Below are positions 3,050 through 14,625 of a stretch of 64,000 nt of DNA, piece by piece. The stretch comes from Eutypella sp. D-1 (lineage: Eukaryota > Ascomycota > Sordariomycetes > Xylariales > Diatrypaceae): NCBI GenBank assembly GCA_023313575.1, contig JAJTTP010000039.1:1-64000 (forward strand), given 5' to 3'. The first letter of the stretch is position 1, and the number at the start of each line of letters is the position of its first letter. The notes beneath the pieces are model-generated. The model was not told the DNA's origin. It made no database searches and saw only the letters and a list, made by a program, of their open reading frames with translations. Position numbers and translations under genes: made by a program.

Positions 3050-4561
3050 ATGTTATTATCATCTTTATTATTTATACCTGTTTTAGGTATATTCTTAATA
3101 TCTAGCCTGGATTCTAATTATATAGATTCTAAGGTTTCAATTAGTCAAATTGCGTCTTATTATAAAAGGATAGCCTTAGTAACATCAGTTTTAAATTTAA
3201 TAGTATCTCTAGTAATATTTATATTATTTGATTTTAGTTCTAATCAATTTCAATTTGTTGATTATCAATATGTATATGATTTATATGGTATATACCTTGG
3301 AGTAGATAGTATATCTATCTATTTTGTTTTATTAACTACTATTATCTTTCCTATTGCAATTATAGGTAATTTTAATTCTATTACTGATAATATAAAAACC
3401 TATTTTATATTGATGTTATTATTAGAAATGTTATTGTTAGCTTGTTTTTTAGTTTTAGATATATTATTATTCTACGTATTTTTTGAATCCATTCTCCCTC
3501 CTTTGTTTTTACTAATAGGGATATTCGGGTCCTCAAATAGAGTTAGGGCTAGTTTTTATCTTTTTTTATACACACTTTTTGGATCTCTCTTCTTATTGTT
3601 GGCGATACTAACAATGTCTTCTATAATGGGGGGTACAGATATGGAGTTATTATTTAAATCAAATTTCGATTACGCTACGCAAGTATTTTTATTCTGCGGA
3701 GTGTTTTTTTCTATTGCCATTAAAACTCCGGTTTATCCTCTTCACACCTGGTTGTTAAGAGCTCATGTAGAATCTCCTTTAGGTGGAAGTATTATTTTGG
3801 CTGGAATAGTGCTTAAACTAGGATTATACGCTGTATTAAGATTAATGTTACCAATAATACCTCAGGCCTGTTTAGATTACACATTTGTAATATATGTAAT
3901 TTGTGTTATTACTATTATATATGCTAGTTTTAGTACTTTAAGAACTACAGATCTTAAAGAATTAGTAGCATATAGCTCAGTATCTCATGCTGCTGTGTAT
4001 ATACTAGGTGTTTTCTCTAACACAGTTGCTGGAATAGAGGGGGCTATAATCTTAGGATTGGCGCATGGATTTGCTTCCAGCGGATTGTTTATTATTGTTG
4101 GGGGGGTTCTTTACGATAGAACCGGAACTAGATTAATTACTTTCTATAGAGGATTATCTCAGATGATGCCTTTGTGCTCTTTATTATTCTTTATCTTCTG
4201 TTTAGGTAATTGTGGAGCACCTCTTACATTAAATTTTGTAGGAGAGTTCCTATCTCTTTATGGTGCATTTGAAAGATTACCCGTTTTAGGTGTTTTAGCC
4301 GCTTCTTCAATGGTGTTCTCTGCAGCTTACAGTATTTATTTATTTAATAGAGTAGCCTTTGGTGGTTCCTTCTCTTTATTCTTTCAAGAAAGTTTTTTTG
4401 ACTTAAGTAAAAGAGAATTCTCTATATTATTAACTCTAGCATTATTTATGGTTTTATTTGGTATATACCCTAATGTAATATTAGATGGTATCCATTACGG
4501 TGTATCCGGTTTAATTTATAGTTATTCTGAATTATCAACTCTTACTTCTACAAATAATTAG
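3050..4561 (+). CDS. nad4: NADH dehydrogenase subunit 4, complete
   Basis: This 503-codon uninterrupted ORF is ND4, a proton-pumping antiporter-like subunit of complex I in the inner membrane. It shows many hydrophobic helices, the conserved FFESILPPLFLLIGIFGS segment, KTPVYPLHTWLLRAHVESP and LAHGFASSGLF. Length matches the family. The start is the ATG at 3050 (MLLSSLLFIPVLGIF), a normal N-terminus. A partial second copy of its 3' third lies at about 5983-6517, and a diverged bit of its 5' end at about 8171-8310. This gene is thus either the original that was duplicated or a complete replacement copy beside native remnants. No intron interrupts it. Confidence 0.96.
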   Translation: MLLSSLLFIPVLGIFLISSLDSNYIDSKVSISQIASYYKRIALVTSVLNLIVSLVIFILFDFSSNQFQFVDYQYVYDLYGIYLGVDSISIYFVLLTTIIFPIAIIGNFNSITDNIKTYFILMLLLEMLLLACFLVLDILLFYVFFESILPPLFLLIGIFGSSNRVRASFYLFLYTLFGSLFLLLAILTMSSIMGGTDMELLFKSNFDYATQVFLFCGVFFSIAIKTPVYPLHTWLLRAHVESPLGGSIILAGIVLKLGLYAVLRLMLPIIPQACLDYTFVIYVICVITIIYASFSTLRTTDLKELVAYSSVSHAAVYILGVFSNTVAGIEGAIILGLAHGFASSGLFIIVGGVLYDRTGTRLITFYRGLSQMMPLCSLLFFIFCLGNCGAPLTLNFVGEFLSLYGAFERLPVLGVLAASSMVFSAAYSIYLFNRVAFGGSFSLFFQESFFDLSKREFSILLTLALFMVLFGIYPNVILDGIHYGVSGLIYSYSELSTLTSTNN

Positions 4562-4653: not shown

Positions 4654-5957
4654 TGGATCAAGTTAATTTTAGTAAATTTTACTCTACTTCAAGTAAGTCA
4701 ACATGGGGAGAAAACCCGGCAACATTACCTGTTCACTCAACACTTGATAGATTATCTCCAGAGTTTTGTGAATGATTTGCCGGGTTTGTGGATGCAGAAG
4801 GCCTATTTGCGGTTTATTTAGTAGATGACAGGAGACCTAAATCTTCCTTTAGAATTACCTTGCATAAAGATGACCACGCAGCTCTAGAATTCATACAAGA
4901 TCAATTAGGAGCAGGTAATATCTTGTCTAGTAGAGAAACTTTGGTGTTTTATTTACAAAGAGAGGAGGATTTAGAGAATGTTCTTTTCCCTCTTTTAGAT
5001 TCATTCCCTCTTAATTCTACTAAACACATGGATTATCTTTAAAAAAGCGCATTTTATAAGGAAAGATAGATCATATAGGACATTTGAAGGTTTAAGTTAT
5101 CTGAAAAATCTGTTATCCCAGCTGAAGAATGAAAGAACTGATTTTACGTACCCTGGTAACCATACTTTCCGAATAACTCTTAATTGAATGTTAGGGTTTA
5201 TAGAGGGAGACGGGATGTTTACAGGACACGTAGACAAAGAAACTTACAGGATACGGTAAGGTTTAAGTATCATTCAGACGGCGGCTGAAGAAAAACTTCT
5301 GGACACTATTAGAGTCTTCTGGAAAAATCTTGCTCAAGTTAAATAAGCCTCAGGAGATGGGGAGGAAATAGTGTAAAAAAATAAATGTACCAGCTAAACC
5401 TTCCGAACAGCCTTCTATTCGAATTACTATTAGTGATACAGTTTTTTTATACACTACAATTATACCTTTATTTAACTCTTAAATTTTTCACCAAACCCCC
5501 GCAGTAAGAATGCAGCGGGGGTTTATGAAAAAAGGTTAGATTATCAGGATTGATCTATTGTAGTTCAAATTTCTTTTTTAGGTATACATTTAAACGAGGA
5601 AGGTATATCCTTGGCTTTAGATTTAATTAGTCGTATGAATAATAGTAGACTTACTACTCATAAAAACTTTAAAGAGGTATAAATCAGTAAGGATAGAATA
5701 GATCATGTTTTATTTTTATCTTCTGCCTATGAGTATAGAGGTGGAGAACGTTATCTTATAGATAGCGGTAGAAAAGTTTCCCTTATTAAAGAAATTAAGT
5801 TAATTGATCCTCAAGGATTAGGATTAGTATTTCCTAGTATAAGCGAATGTGCCCGGGCTTTAAATGAAGATAGGAAGAGAATAGTTAGATATGTTAATAA
5901 GGATAAATTATTAGTGTGCAAGAATGATAAAAATAAGAAATACTATGTGGTGAGATA
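4654..5957 (+). pseudogene. Dead LAGLIDADG + NUMOD1 HEG behind nad4
   Basis: A HEG begins about 90 bases after the nad4 stop. Its first domain is nearly intact: FCEWFAGFVDAEGLF (UGA as Trp), LHKDDHAALEFIQDQLGAGN, up to FPLNSTKHMDYL. The second domain is recognisable as LGFIEGDGMF near 5191-5220, then decays through several stops. One 32-nt GC hairpin sits at 5493-5524. The 3' end (about 5740-5957) is a NUMOD1-like tail (SISECARALNEDRKRIVRYV). It lies between a complete nad4 and a duplicated nad4 3' end, the arrangement expected if an intron-type HEG carried a piece of its host exon along. Confidence 0.8.
5493..5524. repeat. 32-nt GC hairpin element (inverted copy)
   Basis: A palindrome with AAACCCCCGC and GCGGGGGTTT arms. 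It is the reverse complement of the copies at 6860, 21997, 25388, 25568 and 39018, and lies inside a dead HEG. Confidence 0.9.
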
Positions 5958-5982
5958 AGACTTACCTAGTTCGAATCTGTAC

Positions 5983-6517
5983 CTTATTGGTTAGCCCTGG
6001 TTTATCTATTGTAGCTGGAGGTGTTTTATATGATAGAACTGGTACTCGTAACATAGCTTATTACCGGGGAATTGCTCAATTACTTCCATTATGTTCCGTT
6101 TTATTTTTTATTTTATGTTTAGGTAATTGTGGAGCACCTCTTACATTAAATTTTGTAGGAGGGTTCCTATCTCTTTATGGTGCATTTGAAAGACTACCCG
6201 TTCTAGGTGTTTTAGCCGTTTCTTATATGGTATTTTCAGCAGCATACTCAATTTTCTTATTTAATAGAGTAGCTTTTGGTTGTAGCTTTAGTGTATTCTT
6301 TCTCGAGGGTTTTGTAGATCTTACAAAACGAGAGTTCTCCATATTATTTATTTTAGTATTCCTTACAGTATTATTTGGAATTTACCCTAGTGTAATATTG
6401 GATGGTCTTCATTTTGGAGTCTCAACTTTAATTTATAGTGCTGATTATTCAAATTCGTTTACTTATACAGGTTCTTCTTTCAAGTGGATAACCTTTCATT
6501 GGATAAGTTTAAATTAG
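5983..6517 (+). pseudogene. nad4: Duplicated nad4 3' portion
   Basis: About 178 codons restart in ND4 at VSPGLSIVAGGVLYDRTGTR and continue to a natural C-terminus with a different tail (ending WITFHWISLN). The corresponding part of the complete nad4 begins at about 4075. Identity at DNA level is very high in one block (6118-6215 against 4201-4300) and lower on both sides, suggesting gene conversion or patchy exchange. It has no start codon and no upstream exon here, so it should not be translated as ND4 unless joined by splicing. It follows a dead HEG and is itself followed by another. Confidence 0.88.
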
Positions 6518-10897: not shown

Positions 10898-11022
10898 ATT
10901 ACTGTGGTATACATCGCTCCGGATAACTTTACCAGATGGGGTATGAATTGCAGAGATAAGAATAAAAGTTTACTTATTTTTGTCATTAACATAATTAGAG
11001 GATTAATTTGTTGACACGAATG

Positions 11023-11226
11023 TCAGGCCATATGCTTTTAAGTATATTATCAGGTTTTACTTACAATATAATGAGTTCAGGTATTGTTTTTTTTTTTTTT
11101 GGTTTGGTCCCTTTGTCATTTATTATAGCTTTTTCGGGTTTAGAATTTGGGATTGCTTTTATTCAGGCTCAAGTGTTTATTATATTAAGTTGTTCATATA
11201 TAAAAGATGGATTAGATCTTCATTAA
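11023..11226 (+). CDS. atp6: ATP synthase subunit 6, exon 2
   Basis: Encodes the ATP6 C-terminus: SGHMLLSILSGFTYNIM, LVPLSFIIAFSGLEFGIAF, then IQAQVFIILSCSYIKDGLDL and H before TAA at 11224-11226. These are the last two membrane helices and the family's usual ending. The in-frame sequence just upstream (LTRM) lies within the uncertain splice window. A run of 14 T at about 11088-11101 reads through in frame as phenylalanines and is prone to length variation. The following frame is not part of ATP6. Confidence 0.93.
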   Translation, partial: SGHMLLSILSGFTYNIMSSGIVFFFFGLVPLSFIIAFSGLEFGIAFIQAQVFIILSCSYIKDGLDLH

Positions 11227-12311
11227 TTGATATTTATAATACAATAAAAAGTTGTCTTATTTACTTTTATGAAAAAATCGCTAAACTTAATTTAGAGTGA
11301 GGTAAAACAAGCCCTCCTAAACCTCATGCCTTTGTAAGTTGTCCTTTACAAAGTAGTTTTTTTTGGAATGTTATAAACAAATTTAGTGCTAAATTTTCAT
11401 GGGTTAAATTAATTATTATGGCATTAGTAGGGATATTATCTTTCTATTTTAAAAATGAACTTACTGATTTACTACTTAGTTTAAGCTCTGTGGGCGTTTC
11501 ACTCAATGAAGAAATTTTGGCAATTTTTATGGGTTTGATTAGTACATTAGTTTATTTATTCCGTAACTTTTTAAGTTCAATGCTTGAAGGTGTTTTTGAA
11601 TGTTTTAATATTCCAATAAATGGTGGCCATGTTGGTAAAATAAAAATAGATTCTAACATTAAAACTCATCTTGAAGTAAGAACAGATAAAGCAACTTCAG
11701 GTTCAAATACTGTACCAGATTCTCCAGAGATAGTGTCTAACTTGAAAAGGGAAATGGATGATTTAAGTGCTGCAAATCAACGGTTTTTAGATGTCTTCAA
11801 GTTATGAAATGAAGTACCAACATTTGAAGGTCTTGACTGAAACAAACATAAAGATGCTATGGTGTTTATAAAATTACTTCAAGATCAGGCCGATATGGTT
11901 AGTAAGTGATTTATAAATAGGATGACTTGAACAGATACTGTGCTTAAGGATATAAAAATGTCTGGGGCTACTATAAATGAAATAGAGGAGTTACATCGTA
12001 AAGTTAGGGATAAACAAGATGAATATTTCGATAAAGTATCTGCATTATCAGATAAAGAGGGACGAGGTGTTGAAAGACATGCAAAAGAATTCTTTTCTTT
12101 AGCTAATGGTTTTCGTAATGACGTTAACAAGTTATTAAATAAGGGGGAAAATATAATGCATGACGGTATTAGAAAAAGTTCTTTATATAAAGATCCCGAA
12201 ATAAAAAAAATATTTAATCAATATTATCCTGAATTCAAAAAAGCATTTATCGAAGAGGATACGAAATTAAGAAAAAAATGCTCAGAATTTATAAATGCTA
12301 AAAAAGATTAA
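11227..12311 (+). CDS. Unknown membrane/coiled-coil protein with COX1-tail-like N-terminal segment
   Basis: In the UGA=Trp code one frame is open from the atp6 stop to TAA at 12311, about 360 codons. Early in it is LEWGKTSPPKPHAFVSC then PLQS, resembling the extreme C-terminus of fungal COX1. Two hydrophobic stretches follow (LIIMALVGILSFYF and LAIFMGLISTLVYLF), then a long charged, helix-rich region (EIEELHRKVRDKQDEYFDKV) likely to form a coiled coil. Several UGA codons are read through, including 11805, 11838 and 11919. The first in-frame ATG is 11418, after the COX1-like part, so the true start is unresolved. I do not recognise the family. The frame may be a chimera like the one at 12970. 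Confidence 0.6.
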
Positions 12312-12395
12312 TTCACAAGAAGTAACTTTGCCTTCATTCTAGGTAGATTTATAAGGTAAATCTACCTAAGGTCAATATGAAATATAATTGGTATC

Positions 12396-12641
12396 ATGGC
12401 TGTTATATTGGTAGTTGTAGGCTTAATTTTAGGTGCTTTTAATATGGAACCTGGTAAAAGGGTACCACACCAAACGGATCCCAAGTATAAGCCGGTATCA
12501 TCTTCTTCATCTGGCCCTAGGAATATGGATTTACTTCCATTGGTACCGAAGGGAGGTCCACGCTTACCTGTTCTTGAACCACCTGTTCCAGATGTTGGTC
12601 CTCCTAAAAAAATGGAAGACTATAAAAATGGAAGACTATGA
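12396..12641 (+). CDS. Small membrane-anchored proline-rich protein, unknown
   Basis: An 81-residue frame starting MAVILVVVGLILGAF, a single hydrophobic helix, followed by a polar proline- and serine-rich tail (GPRNMDLLPLVPKGGPRLPV, then PDVGPPKKMED). It has no match I know. It lies between two chimeric genes and uses no UGA codon. A hairpin (GGTAGATTTATAAGGTAAAT, about 12331-12371) precedes it. It may be a real small protein or decay from a longer one. The stretch 12642-12969 holds no gene I can see. Confidence 0.35.
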   Translation: MAVILVVVGLILGAFNMEPGKRVPHQTDPKYKPVSSSSSGPRNMDLLPLVPKGGPRLPVLEPPVPDVGPPKKMEDYKNGRL

Positions 12642-12969
12642 AGAAGGTGGTGTCACTTATTTGGGGTAATTTACTTAGACGTTCTCATTCGACTAATTCT
12701 TTATCTTGGTAGCTTAAGGGTAAGGCTACGTCTACGCCTATGCTTCGCGGATCCAACTGATAATGGGTTCTATTCTACTAATGATTTAAAGTCTTAAAAA
12801 GTGTTTGGAGTCTACCCAATACTTTAAGAATGAAATAAAACCTTTTTTTGTTCTGCATATTTTCTGAAATAAGGTCATATGTCCGTCCTAATTTCTAAGG
12901 CGCCGTTATACTGAGCGAAATTACATATTATATAATTCAAGATTTATAATCTAAATTTGTTGAAAACAA

Positions 12970-14625
12970 ATGACTAACAATTACATATTTAGTGGGGTTA
13001 AAAAAAAAATAAAGAAATTGATACAAGTAGCAAAAATAATAGGTACAGGTTTAGCTACAACTGGTTTGATTGGAGCTGGAGTTGGAATAGGTGTAGTTTT
13101 TGGTGCATTAATTTTGGGATTTGTATTCAGTGAAGCCACTGGATTATTTGCCTTAATGATGGCTTTTTTGCTTTTAAGTGTTGCTTTATTTAAACAGAGT
13201 TATCTTAGTTTAGAGTGAGCTTTAAATAGTCCACCTAAACCACATATTTTTAATTTATCATTGGAAAGTTCTTCTTTTTCCATGATGGGCCTTTTTGATG
13301 AAAGTAAGCCATATGCTGTAGAAGGAAAAGGTATTTACATTATTACAAAGGATGGTAGGAAGGTTATAGACGGGTGTTCAGGTGCTGGTGTATCTAGTAT
13401 TGGTCACAGAAACCGCAGAGTGATTGATGCTATTACAAAACAGAACAAAACGGGTATAAGTTATCTGTCTTCATCTTGGGGTAGTAGAGTGGTCGATGAT
13501 TTCTGTAAGTTTATCATAAGAGGTACAGGAGGTAAAATGGTCAGGGTATACATCGTTAACTCAGGGTCTGAGTCAACCGAAGTTGCAATGAAGCTAGCTT
13601 ATTCTTATCATCGCGAAAATAATGACCCTAGACGGATCAATATCATTTCAAGGGTGGGTTCTTATCATGGGGCTACCTTGTTACCTTTGACTATATCAGG
13701 GTTTTATGCCCGTAAACATTATTACAATGCAATACTAAATAAAGATAATTTTTATTACGTTTCCGCTTGTTACGCTTACCGTCAAAAATTAAAAGGGGAG
13801 ACAGATGTGGCTTTCGTGTATAGAAAAGCAGCAGAACTGGAGGCAAAAATCCTGGAGATAGGTCCTGGTACAGTTATGGCCTTTATCCTCGAGCCTGTGG
13901 TAGGTGCAGCATTAGGATGTGCTCCTTTTGTTCCGGGTTATTTAAAGGCTATGCGGGAGGTATGTGATAAATATGGTGTACTTTTAATATATGATGAAGT
14001 TATGTGTGGTATGGGTAGGACTGGTACTATGCATGCATGACAAGCAGAAGGTGTTGGGCCTGATATTCAGACTAATGCTAAAGGGCTTGGTGGAGGATAC
14101 GTCCCTATAGCGATGGTGTTAGCCTCTAAAAAGGTTATTGATGTTATAAATAAAGGTAGTGGGGAGTTTGTCCACGGGCAGACCTATGAAGGAATGCCAT
14201 CCACTGTTGCAGGTGCTCTCGAAGTTCAGAGAGTCATAAAAGATAATAAATTAGTAAAAAATGTATCCAAACAGGGGGCATATTTAGGATGATGTCTTAG
14301 AGCTGTTTTAAGTAATCACCCTAATGTTGGAGACATTAGGGGACTGGGTCTTTTCTGAGGTATAGAGTTTGTAGAAAATAAAGGGACTAAAAAACCCTTT
14401 GACCCAAAACTTGAAATTGCTAAAAGAATTGTTGACTTGGCCTTCTCACCTGAATTTAACCTAGCAATTTACTATGGGGGATTTGCAGGATATTATATCC
14501 ATATAGATCGTATTATAATTGCTCCTCCATTTATTATCAAGAAAAAGGAGGTGGATTGTATAGTGGAAATTCTATCAAAAGTAATTGAGAGAGTTTTCAA
14601 TGAAGTTGGCACTAAGAGGATATAG
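12970..14625 (+). CDS. Chimeric ORF: deleted ATP9 + COX1 tail + class-III aminotransferase
   Basis: One 551-codon frame with UGA as Trp. Residues about 15-75 are ATP9 ([20 protein letters not shown], then [17 protein letters not shown]), but the polar loop between the two helices is missing: VVFGALILG runs straight into FVFSEA. Residues about 78-98 are a COX1-tail-like linker ([14 protein letters not shown]). From about 100 on is a PLP-dependent class-III aminotransferase: [14 protein letters not shown] (cofactor phosphate), SYHGATL, EPVVGA, YDEV with Asp342, AKGLGGGY with Lys371 as the expected Schiff-base lysine, then [14 protein letters not shown] gives Trp at MHAW and GLFWG, both usual Trp sites in the family. 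Catalytic residues are intact and the length is normal (about 440). The ATP9 part could anchor the enzyme in the inner membrane. Substrate unknown. Alternatively translation starts internally at the Met codons near 13282. Confidence 0.85.

Follow-up and report, generated by a model that had tools for sequence, protein, structure and literature searches.

A mitochondrial reading frame of Eutypella sp. D-1 that fuses a loopless ATP9 head and a COX1-like linker to a class-III aminotransferase domain

The window analyzed here, a 64-kb stretch of DNA (64,000 nucleotides) from Eutypella sp. D-1, is fungal mitochondrial DNA, as judged by matches to rRNA, tRNA and respiratory genes together with many intron-type open reading frames (ORFs), mostly on the plus strand; the genome containing it comprises 48.5 Mb in 72 contigs. 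Between atp6 and rns, at 12970..14625 on the plus strand, lies a chimeric ORF of 551 codons (NCBI code 4) made up of an ATP9 head, a COX1 tail and a class-III aminotransferase (AT). An earlier note on this DNA, made from the letters alone, had described one frame that fuses a loopless ATP9 head, a COX1-tail linker and a full AT domain, and this description is borne out over 12970-14625. By comparison, the longest open frame arising by chance in 40 random 64-kb sequences of matched base composition was 215 codons, and a 449-codon stop-free run has a chance probability of about 4e-13 at the base composition of this DNA. The proposed use of the mitochondrial code is likewise supported, with TGA at codons 83, 357, 441 and 463 and a single TGG at codon 170. 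GC content at the three codon positions of the AT domain is 0.49/0.39/0.29, still unlike that of nad4 (0.34/0.34/0.20). A neighboring ORF at 11190..12311 (plus strand) also carries a COX1-tail segment (LEWGKTSPPKPHAFVSCPLQSSFF) and overlaps the 3′ end of atp6, recognized by eye, in the -1 frame. A Neurospora mitochondrial promoter consensus was uninformative, with 51 matches against 52.3 expected by chance.

The head of the chimeric ORF belongs to a duplicate of the native atp9 gene and its upstream region (12383..13175, plus strand; native copy at 22211-23057 of contig C36), with 99.05% identity over 12383-13119 and 98.5% identity between 13111-13175 and a later part of the native region. The first 626 bp (12383-13008) contain 2 substitutions, and 13009-13175 contain 6 substitutions plus a 54-bp deletion. 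Relative to the native atp9 of the same genome, this deletion removes 18 codons (VARNPSLRSQLFGYAILG) in frame between two ATTTTGGGA repeats. The segment at 13018..13175 (plus strand) encodes two ATP9 helices in which the Glu of SEATG is retained, with the polar loop deleted at the 9-bp repeat (13111-13119). Residues 16-51 and 41/42-70 match both helices of solved mitochondrial ATP synthase subunit 9 chains (best E about 1e-10). As a subunit 9, the product nevertheless falls short: both helices are present, but the 18-codon loop region is missing and a long C-terminal fusion has been added.

Four of the six substitutions sit just before the helices and change SNKM to IKKL, removing the native ATG, which reads TTG here (13018). 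This leaves the in-frame ATG at 12970, which lies 16 codons further upstream, as the only ATG before the helices; it opens a 16-codon leader (12970..13017, plus strand). Fungal ATP9 normally begins at MIQ; in the head, TTG or ATA may serve as an alternative start. Hydropathy gives one unbroken hydrophobic stretch over residues 26-79, suggesting that the head could insert into a membrane, and residues 1-21 hold five Lys and no acidic residue. One natural reading is that loss of the loop would leave a tight hairpin, with the N-terminus and the AT domain both in the matrix; a single-pass arrangement may also apply. The atp9 and COX1 pieces may thereby give the AT gene its starting signal and its membrane anchor. 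An extra copy of the atp9 leader (about 95%) is seen at 5796-5909 of L010, the region that carries the native atp9 and the second AT described below; it lies upstream of native atp9 and is followed by no atp9 gene of its own, which makes the leader resemble a repeat that recombines. Both copies of the duplicated block also contain, within or across them, a short ORF whose product would have a single hydrophobic segment and a tail rich in proline (window 12375-12797; L010 6018-6626).

Past 13175 the sequence leaves atp9 and turns COX1-tail-like. The linker (13183..13257, plus strand) resembles the COX1 C-terminus and has diverged from the native cox1 end (contig C37, about 7641), to which it is 81% identical over 57 bp (E 4e-8). 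Because the linker is this far from native while the atp9 head is near-identical, the COX1 join appears to predate the duplication or conversion of atp9. These differences also bear on whether atp9, cox1 and AT sequences were falsely joined during assembly, an explanation that we consider hardly credible. The junctions are seen more than once, positions 12383-14625 (2243 bp) being exactly identical on contigs C33, C37 and C57, but these three contigs overlap (overlaps 99.8-99.98% identical) and may draw on the same reads. Against an artefact, one frame passes through all three parts, and neither the head, with its substitutions and deletion, nor the COX1 part can be a copy of native reads.

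Residues 116-539 of the frame (13315..14586, plus strand) form an Aminotran_3 domain, which matches Pfam PF00202 at 264.7 bits against a gathering cut-off of 30.5 (E 1.5e-78; profile positions 13-403 of 403); a Pfam search of the chimeric ORF at E up to 0.01 found this domain alone and no endonuclease. The best of 71 NCBIfam matches (E up to 0.01) is PRK07483 (NF005685), where 469.1 bits narrowly miss the curated cut-off of 485. The chimeric ORF differs from PRK07483-type ATs in this sub-cut-off score, in a rewritten motif at residues 501-514, in its mitochondrial location and in its fusion. A structural model built with four sequences is weak (mean pLDDT 58.9), with 5kqw_A as its best PDB match (E 7.8e-29, TM 0.63/0.75); among the PDB matches listed for it, 50 of 50 are aminotransferase entries.

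The AT does not stand alone, as the same mitochondrial DNA holds a second one. This paralog, on contigs C36 and C38, follows atp9 and precedes an ORF that by eye resembles the start of cox2. It shares 51% identity with the AT of the chimeric ORF (hereafter the window copy) in the AT domain, scores 480 bits on NF005685, also under the cut-off, and differs from the window copy by 0.37/0.27/0.56 at codon positions 1/2/3. The paralog frame has about 290 extra N-terminal residues with hydrophobic segments, for which no PDB chain was matched at E up to 5; the N-terminal extensions of both mitochondrial ATs are hydrophobic and different in sequence. Moreover, the 6.2-Mb contig C1 carries an intron-bearing nuclear homologue (46-47% identical), whose predicted splicing yields 454 residues. 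Anatomy, homology, relatedness and duplication belong to what the analysis shows.

Neither the paralog (L010 6846-9278; first ATG at codon 217 of the open frame) nor the ORF that overlaps atp6 (window 11007-12311; first ATG at 11418) has an ATG near its start. Each of the two frames is -1 to the upstream gene, atp9 and atp6 respectively, and stays open through that gene's 3′ end. The run T TTT TTG closes atp9, and atp6 contains a long stretch of T near 11087. Fusion of these frames to atp9 and atp6 by frameshifting is conceivable.

Two residues central to this enzyme class are intact in the window copy, as had been claimed from the letters: Lys371 (codon at 14080..14082, plus strand), presumably the lysine that forms the Schiff base with PLP, and Asp342 (13993..13995, plus strand), which we take to be the residue at the PLP ring nitrogen. 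Both are the same in 20 of 20 bacterial relatives, and both are matched in the alignment by the nuclear gene and the paralog. In all, the six catalytic-type positions checked are retained (Lys371, Asp342, Gly199, His233, Arg350 and Thr405). The further claim that UGA falls at the usual Trp sites of the family holds for the fungal nuclear gene and the paralog and fails for bacteria, with Trp463 in 3/20 bacteria and Trp357 in all three fungal proteins and 0/20 bacteria; UGA encodes both Trp positions (357 and 463) that the window copy has in common with the nuclear gene.

More broadly, the window copy and the paralog each keep 46 of the 51 alignment columns in which all 20 bacteria and the nuclear gene have the same residue; the leave-out baselines are 91% of 56 columns for the nuclear gene and 81% of 63 for the most distant bacterium. 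Outside the 51 columns, identity between the window copy and the nuclear gene is 40.7%. When the three most distant bacteria are set aside, 95 columns are invariant in the other 17 plus the nuclear gene; of these the window copy keeps 71 and the paralog 76, with the nuclear gene, left out in turn, keeping 84.8% of 112. Six of the 24 columns lost by the window copy fall in residues 502-514. Here, within residues 498-514 (14461..14511, plus strand), is the place of the motif YPxxGTxDGxxGDH (501-514), which 16 of 20 bacteria, the nuclear gene and the paralog have without a single change and which the window copy has lost. Residues that bind the substrate in related class-III enzymes, such as the flipping arginine of omega-transaminases, lie in this stretch. 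As the motif is rewritten, an ordinary working enzyme cannot be assumed, and the window copy would either have shifted its specificity or have begun to fail. A 3-keto-5-aminohexanoate cleavage protein adjoins the AT in 4 of 9 annotated bacterial relatives (18 plasmid regions fetched); from these distant relatives comes a hint at a candidate reaction, in which a beta-amino acid would be transaminated to a beta-keto acid.

The lost motif and the 24 changed near-family invariants would also be expected if the window copy were a relict, that is, a once-working transferred gene that is now redundant with the paralog and decaying, with an atp9 head acquired by neutral duplication and in frame by luck. 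The presence of both a paralog and a nuclear homologue fits such redundancy, as does the alteration of the native atp9 start codon to TTG. Decay is harder to reconcile with 551 codons free of stops and frameshifts, with the retention of the six catalytic-type positions and of 46 of the 51 universal invariants, and with a 54-bp deletion and two joins that all preserve the frame. We regard a relict as possible, while inclining to wager against it. A second alternative is one in which the frame is a selfish or interfering ORF of the kind that causes cytoplasmic male sterility in plants, its ATP9-like head disturbing ATP synthase and its AT riding as a passenger. Such a role would suit a head that retains both helices and the SEATG glutamate while lacking the loop, and whose near-identity to native atp9 is recent, compared with a far-diverged AT domain. 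Against this, the AT invariants have been retained well above background along a long branch. The two copies also differ in their N-terminal parts, which leaves the AT domain as the portion that they share and conserve; we consider a selfish role improbable.

To examine the origin of the AT, a tree was built from 23 sequences: the two mitochondrial ones, one nuclear and 20 bacterial, of which 18 come from plasmid records. The homologue on C1 served as the sole fungal nuclear reference. The mitochondrial ATs are sisters (100/96) and are then joined by the nuclear gene (99/97). Both mitochondrial branches are long and of odd composition, which calls for some caution about the tree. Five alternatives, all picked after the tree had been seen, were compared by the AU test. 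Grouping 16 bacterial rows with the nuclear gene, the mitochondrial pair outside, gave a p-AU of 0.0020; grouping the 16 rows with the nuclear gene and the paralog, the window copy outside, gave 0.00009; and pairing the nuclear gene with either single mitochondrial copy gave 0.015 each. The fifth, in which the mitochondrial pair joins the 16 bacterial rows and the nuclear gene stands outside, was rejected at 0.0022. The earlier note had left capture from the nucleus or from bacteria side by side; within the sampled set, tree and AU tests support kinship with the nuclear gene and speak against a direct bacterial origin. Direct horizontal transfer from a bacterium into mitochondrial DNA can point to bacteria among the ten most similar rows, at 42-44% identity over the domain. 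This low p-AU (0.002), together with the Trp357 and the 46% identity that the window copy has in common with the nuclear gene (in a comparison of 20 bacterial sequences and one fungal nuclear gene), makes such a transfer very unlikely in our judgment.

Viral contigs scanned for relatives of the window protein or of the paralog yielded none, and a scan with an alignment of the three proteins returned one contig, whose AT (L032) falls among bacterial sequences in the tree. A scan of genome contigs returned one locus, from an uncultured Rhodobacteraceae. The simplest history, read from sequence relationships, would be a single nuclear-to-mitochondrial transfer followed by duplication inside the mitochondrial DNA. 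An intron-bearing nuclear gene in a family of bacterial type suggests this direction, which, with one fungal nuclear sequence, is short of proof.

An AT in fungal mitochondrial DNA, which the earlier note had treated as outside the core gene sets, is in fact already known, as class-III ATs are reported in mitochondrial DNA of Xylariales. According to the available text of PMC6140425, the mitochondrial DNA of Annulohypoxylon stygium has an AT class-III-like gene between atp9 and cox2 and an AAT_I fragment between atp6 and rns; transferase genes are rare among about 500 fungal mitochondrial DNAs, and vertical descent is suggested. The two places are the same as here, with the window copy between atp6 and rns and the paralog after atp9 and before the cox2-like ORF recognized by eye; this shared placement would by itself suggest a fungus of the Xylariales. 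In A. stygium, however, the published annotation treats the atp6-rns piece as a fragment and assigns two short introns to the gene between atp9 and cox2, and the available text describes no ATP9/COX1 fusion and no nuclear homologue (PMC6140425). That only a fragment is reported there suggests that the atp6-rns locus may decay, and counts toward a relict in Eutypella. An N-acetyltransferase (PF00583) search prompted by A. stygium placed none of the 38 matches listed on C33, C36, C37, C38 or C57. A standalone AT gene is also mentioned for Pestalotiopsis fici in the accessible part of PMC11277600, and the accessible parts of PMC7902536 and PMC8393795 cite Wai et al. 2019.

For the fusion itself, the closest likenesses in the accessible literature are of two kinds. 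ORF 0044 of Sclerotinia borealis is a second atp9 copy without a stop that continues in frame into an unrelated C-terminal part, but it consists of full-length atp9 and a 213-aa tail, whereas the chimeric ORF has a deleted loop, a COX1 piece and an enzyme (PMC4162613, as far as its available text goes). Mobile-ORF gene hybrids of Glomus and Allomyces likewise involve duplicated ends of atp6, atp9, cox2 and nad3 with inserted ORFs, and those of Glomus were observed at the mRNA level; the available text of PMC3630166 has a homing endonuclease as the insert, whereas the Pfam search of the chimeric ORF found none. The chimeric ORF therefore lacks the homing endonuclease with duplicated 3′ end that typifies these hybrids. 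A full-text literature search found no ATP9-COX1-aminotransferase fusion in the titles or abstracts of the papers listed, most subscription papers lying outside its reach. As far as searched, the new elements are the chimeric architecture, the kinship of two mitochondrial paralogs with a nuclear relative, and the change of the 501-514 motif.

Elsewhere in this mitochondrial DNA, second, diverged 3′ end copies appear, as judged by eye, to lie downstream of nad4 and nad3 (window 3050-4561 and 5924-6517; L010 1881-2384 and 3485-3766), an arrangement like that of mobile-ORF gene hybrids in other fungi. Additionally, mitochondrial ORFs on C33, C36 and C37 contain a presequence-like motif, [RK].?[FY]S[TS] (KRFYSTDAP, KRLYSTASP, VRFYSTTPNK), for example at window 27205, 39151 and 41272 and in L011 6837-8012. 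The pattern, picked after the examples had been seen, occurs in 19 of 62 plus-strand stop-to-stop frames of at least 200 codons (shuffled mean 6.8, maximum 14 in 300) and in 1 of 4 on the minus strand. We take it to resemble the cleavage site of imported fungal mitochondrial proteins, and it might release intron-encoded proteins from their leaders.

Most likely, the chimeric ORF is either the gene of a mitochondrial AT that is anchored in a membrane and altered in specificity, or a recent relict. The explanation that we consider best overall, with a probability of about one half, is that an AT of nuclear kinship moved into the mitochondrial DNA, was duplicated, gained atp9 and COX1 parts and works as an anchored matrix enzyme. 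Under this explanation, a class-III PLP AT gene sharing common ancestry with the fungal nuclear family would have entered the mitochondrial genome long ago and been duplicated there, leaving one copy after atp9 and the window copy between atp6 and rns. The window copy, with its older COX1-tail linker, would then, in a recent duplication or gene conversion, have gained the leader, the start region and both helices of atp9, the head becoming fused in frame after a 54-bp deletion of slippage type. Mitoribosomes would initiate at 12970 through atp9-type leader signals, the hydrophobic ATP9-derived hairpin would enter the inner membrane while the Lys-rich N-terminus remained in the matrix, and the AT domain would act there as an anchored enzyme with changed substrate recognition. 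The direction of transfer, transcription, start, topology, activity and substrate are all features that we infer. The fuller claim, that this is a working nucleus-to-mitochondrion transfer whose AT was duplicated, adapted to UGA-encoded Trp and took over expression and membrane modules of atp9 and cox1 to become an inner-membrane-anchored matrix AT of new specificity, is put forward tentatively, as one that could well prove wrong.

Genes in eukaryotes are expected to flow from the mitochondrion to the nucleus. A two-member enzyme family in mitochondrial DNA with a traceable nuclear relative offers a testable case of flow from the nucleus to the mitochondrion, and it suggests a route by which the gene of a soluble protein may come by signals for mitochondrial translation and the membrane, namely by taking the head of a native gene. 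If true, a working transfer of this kind would be the reverse of the usual direction.
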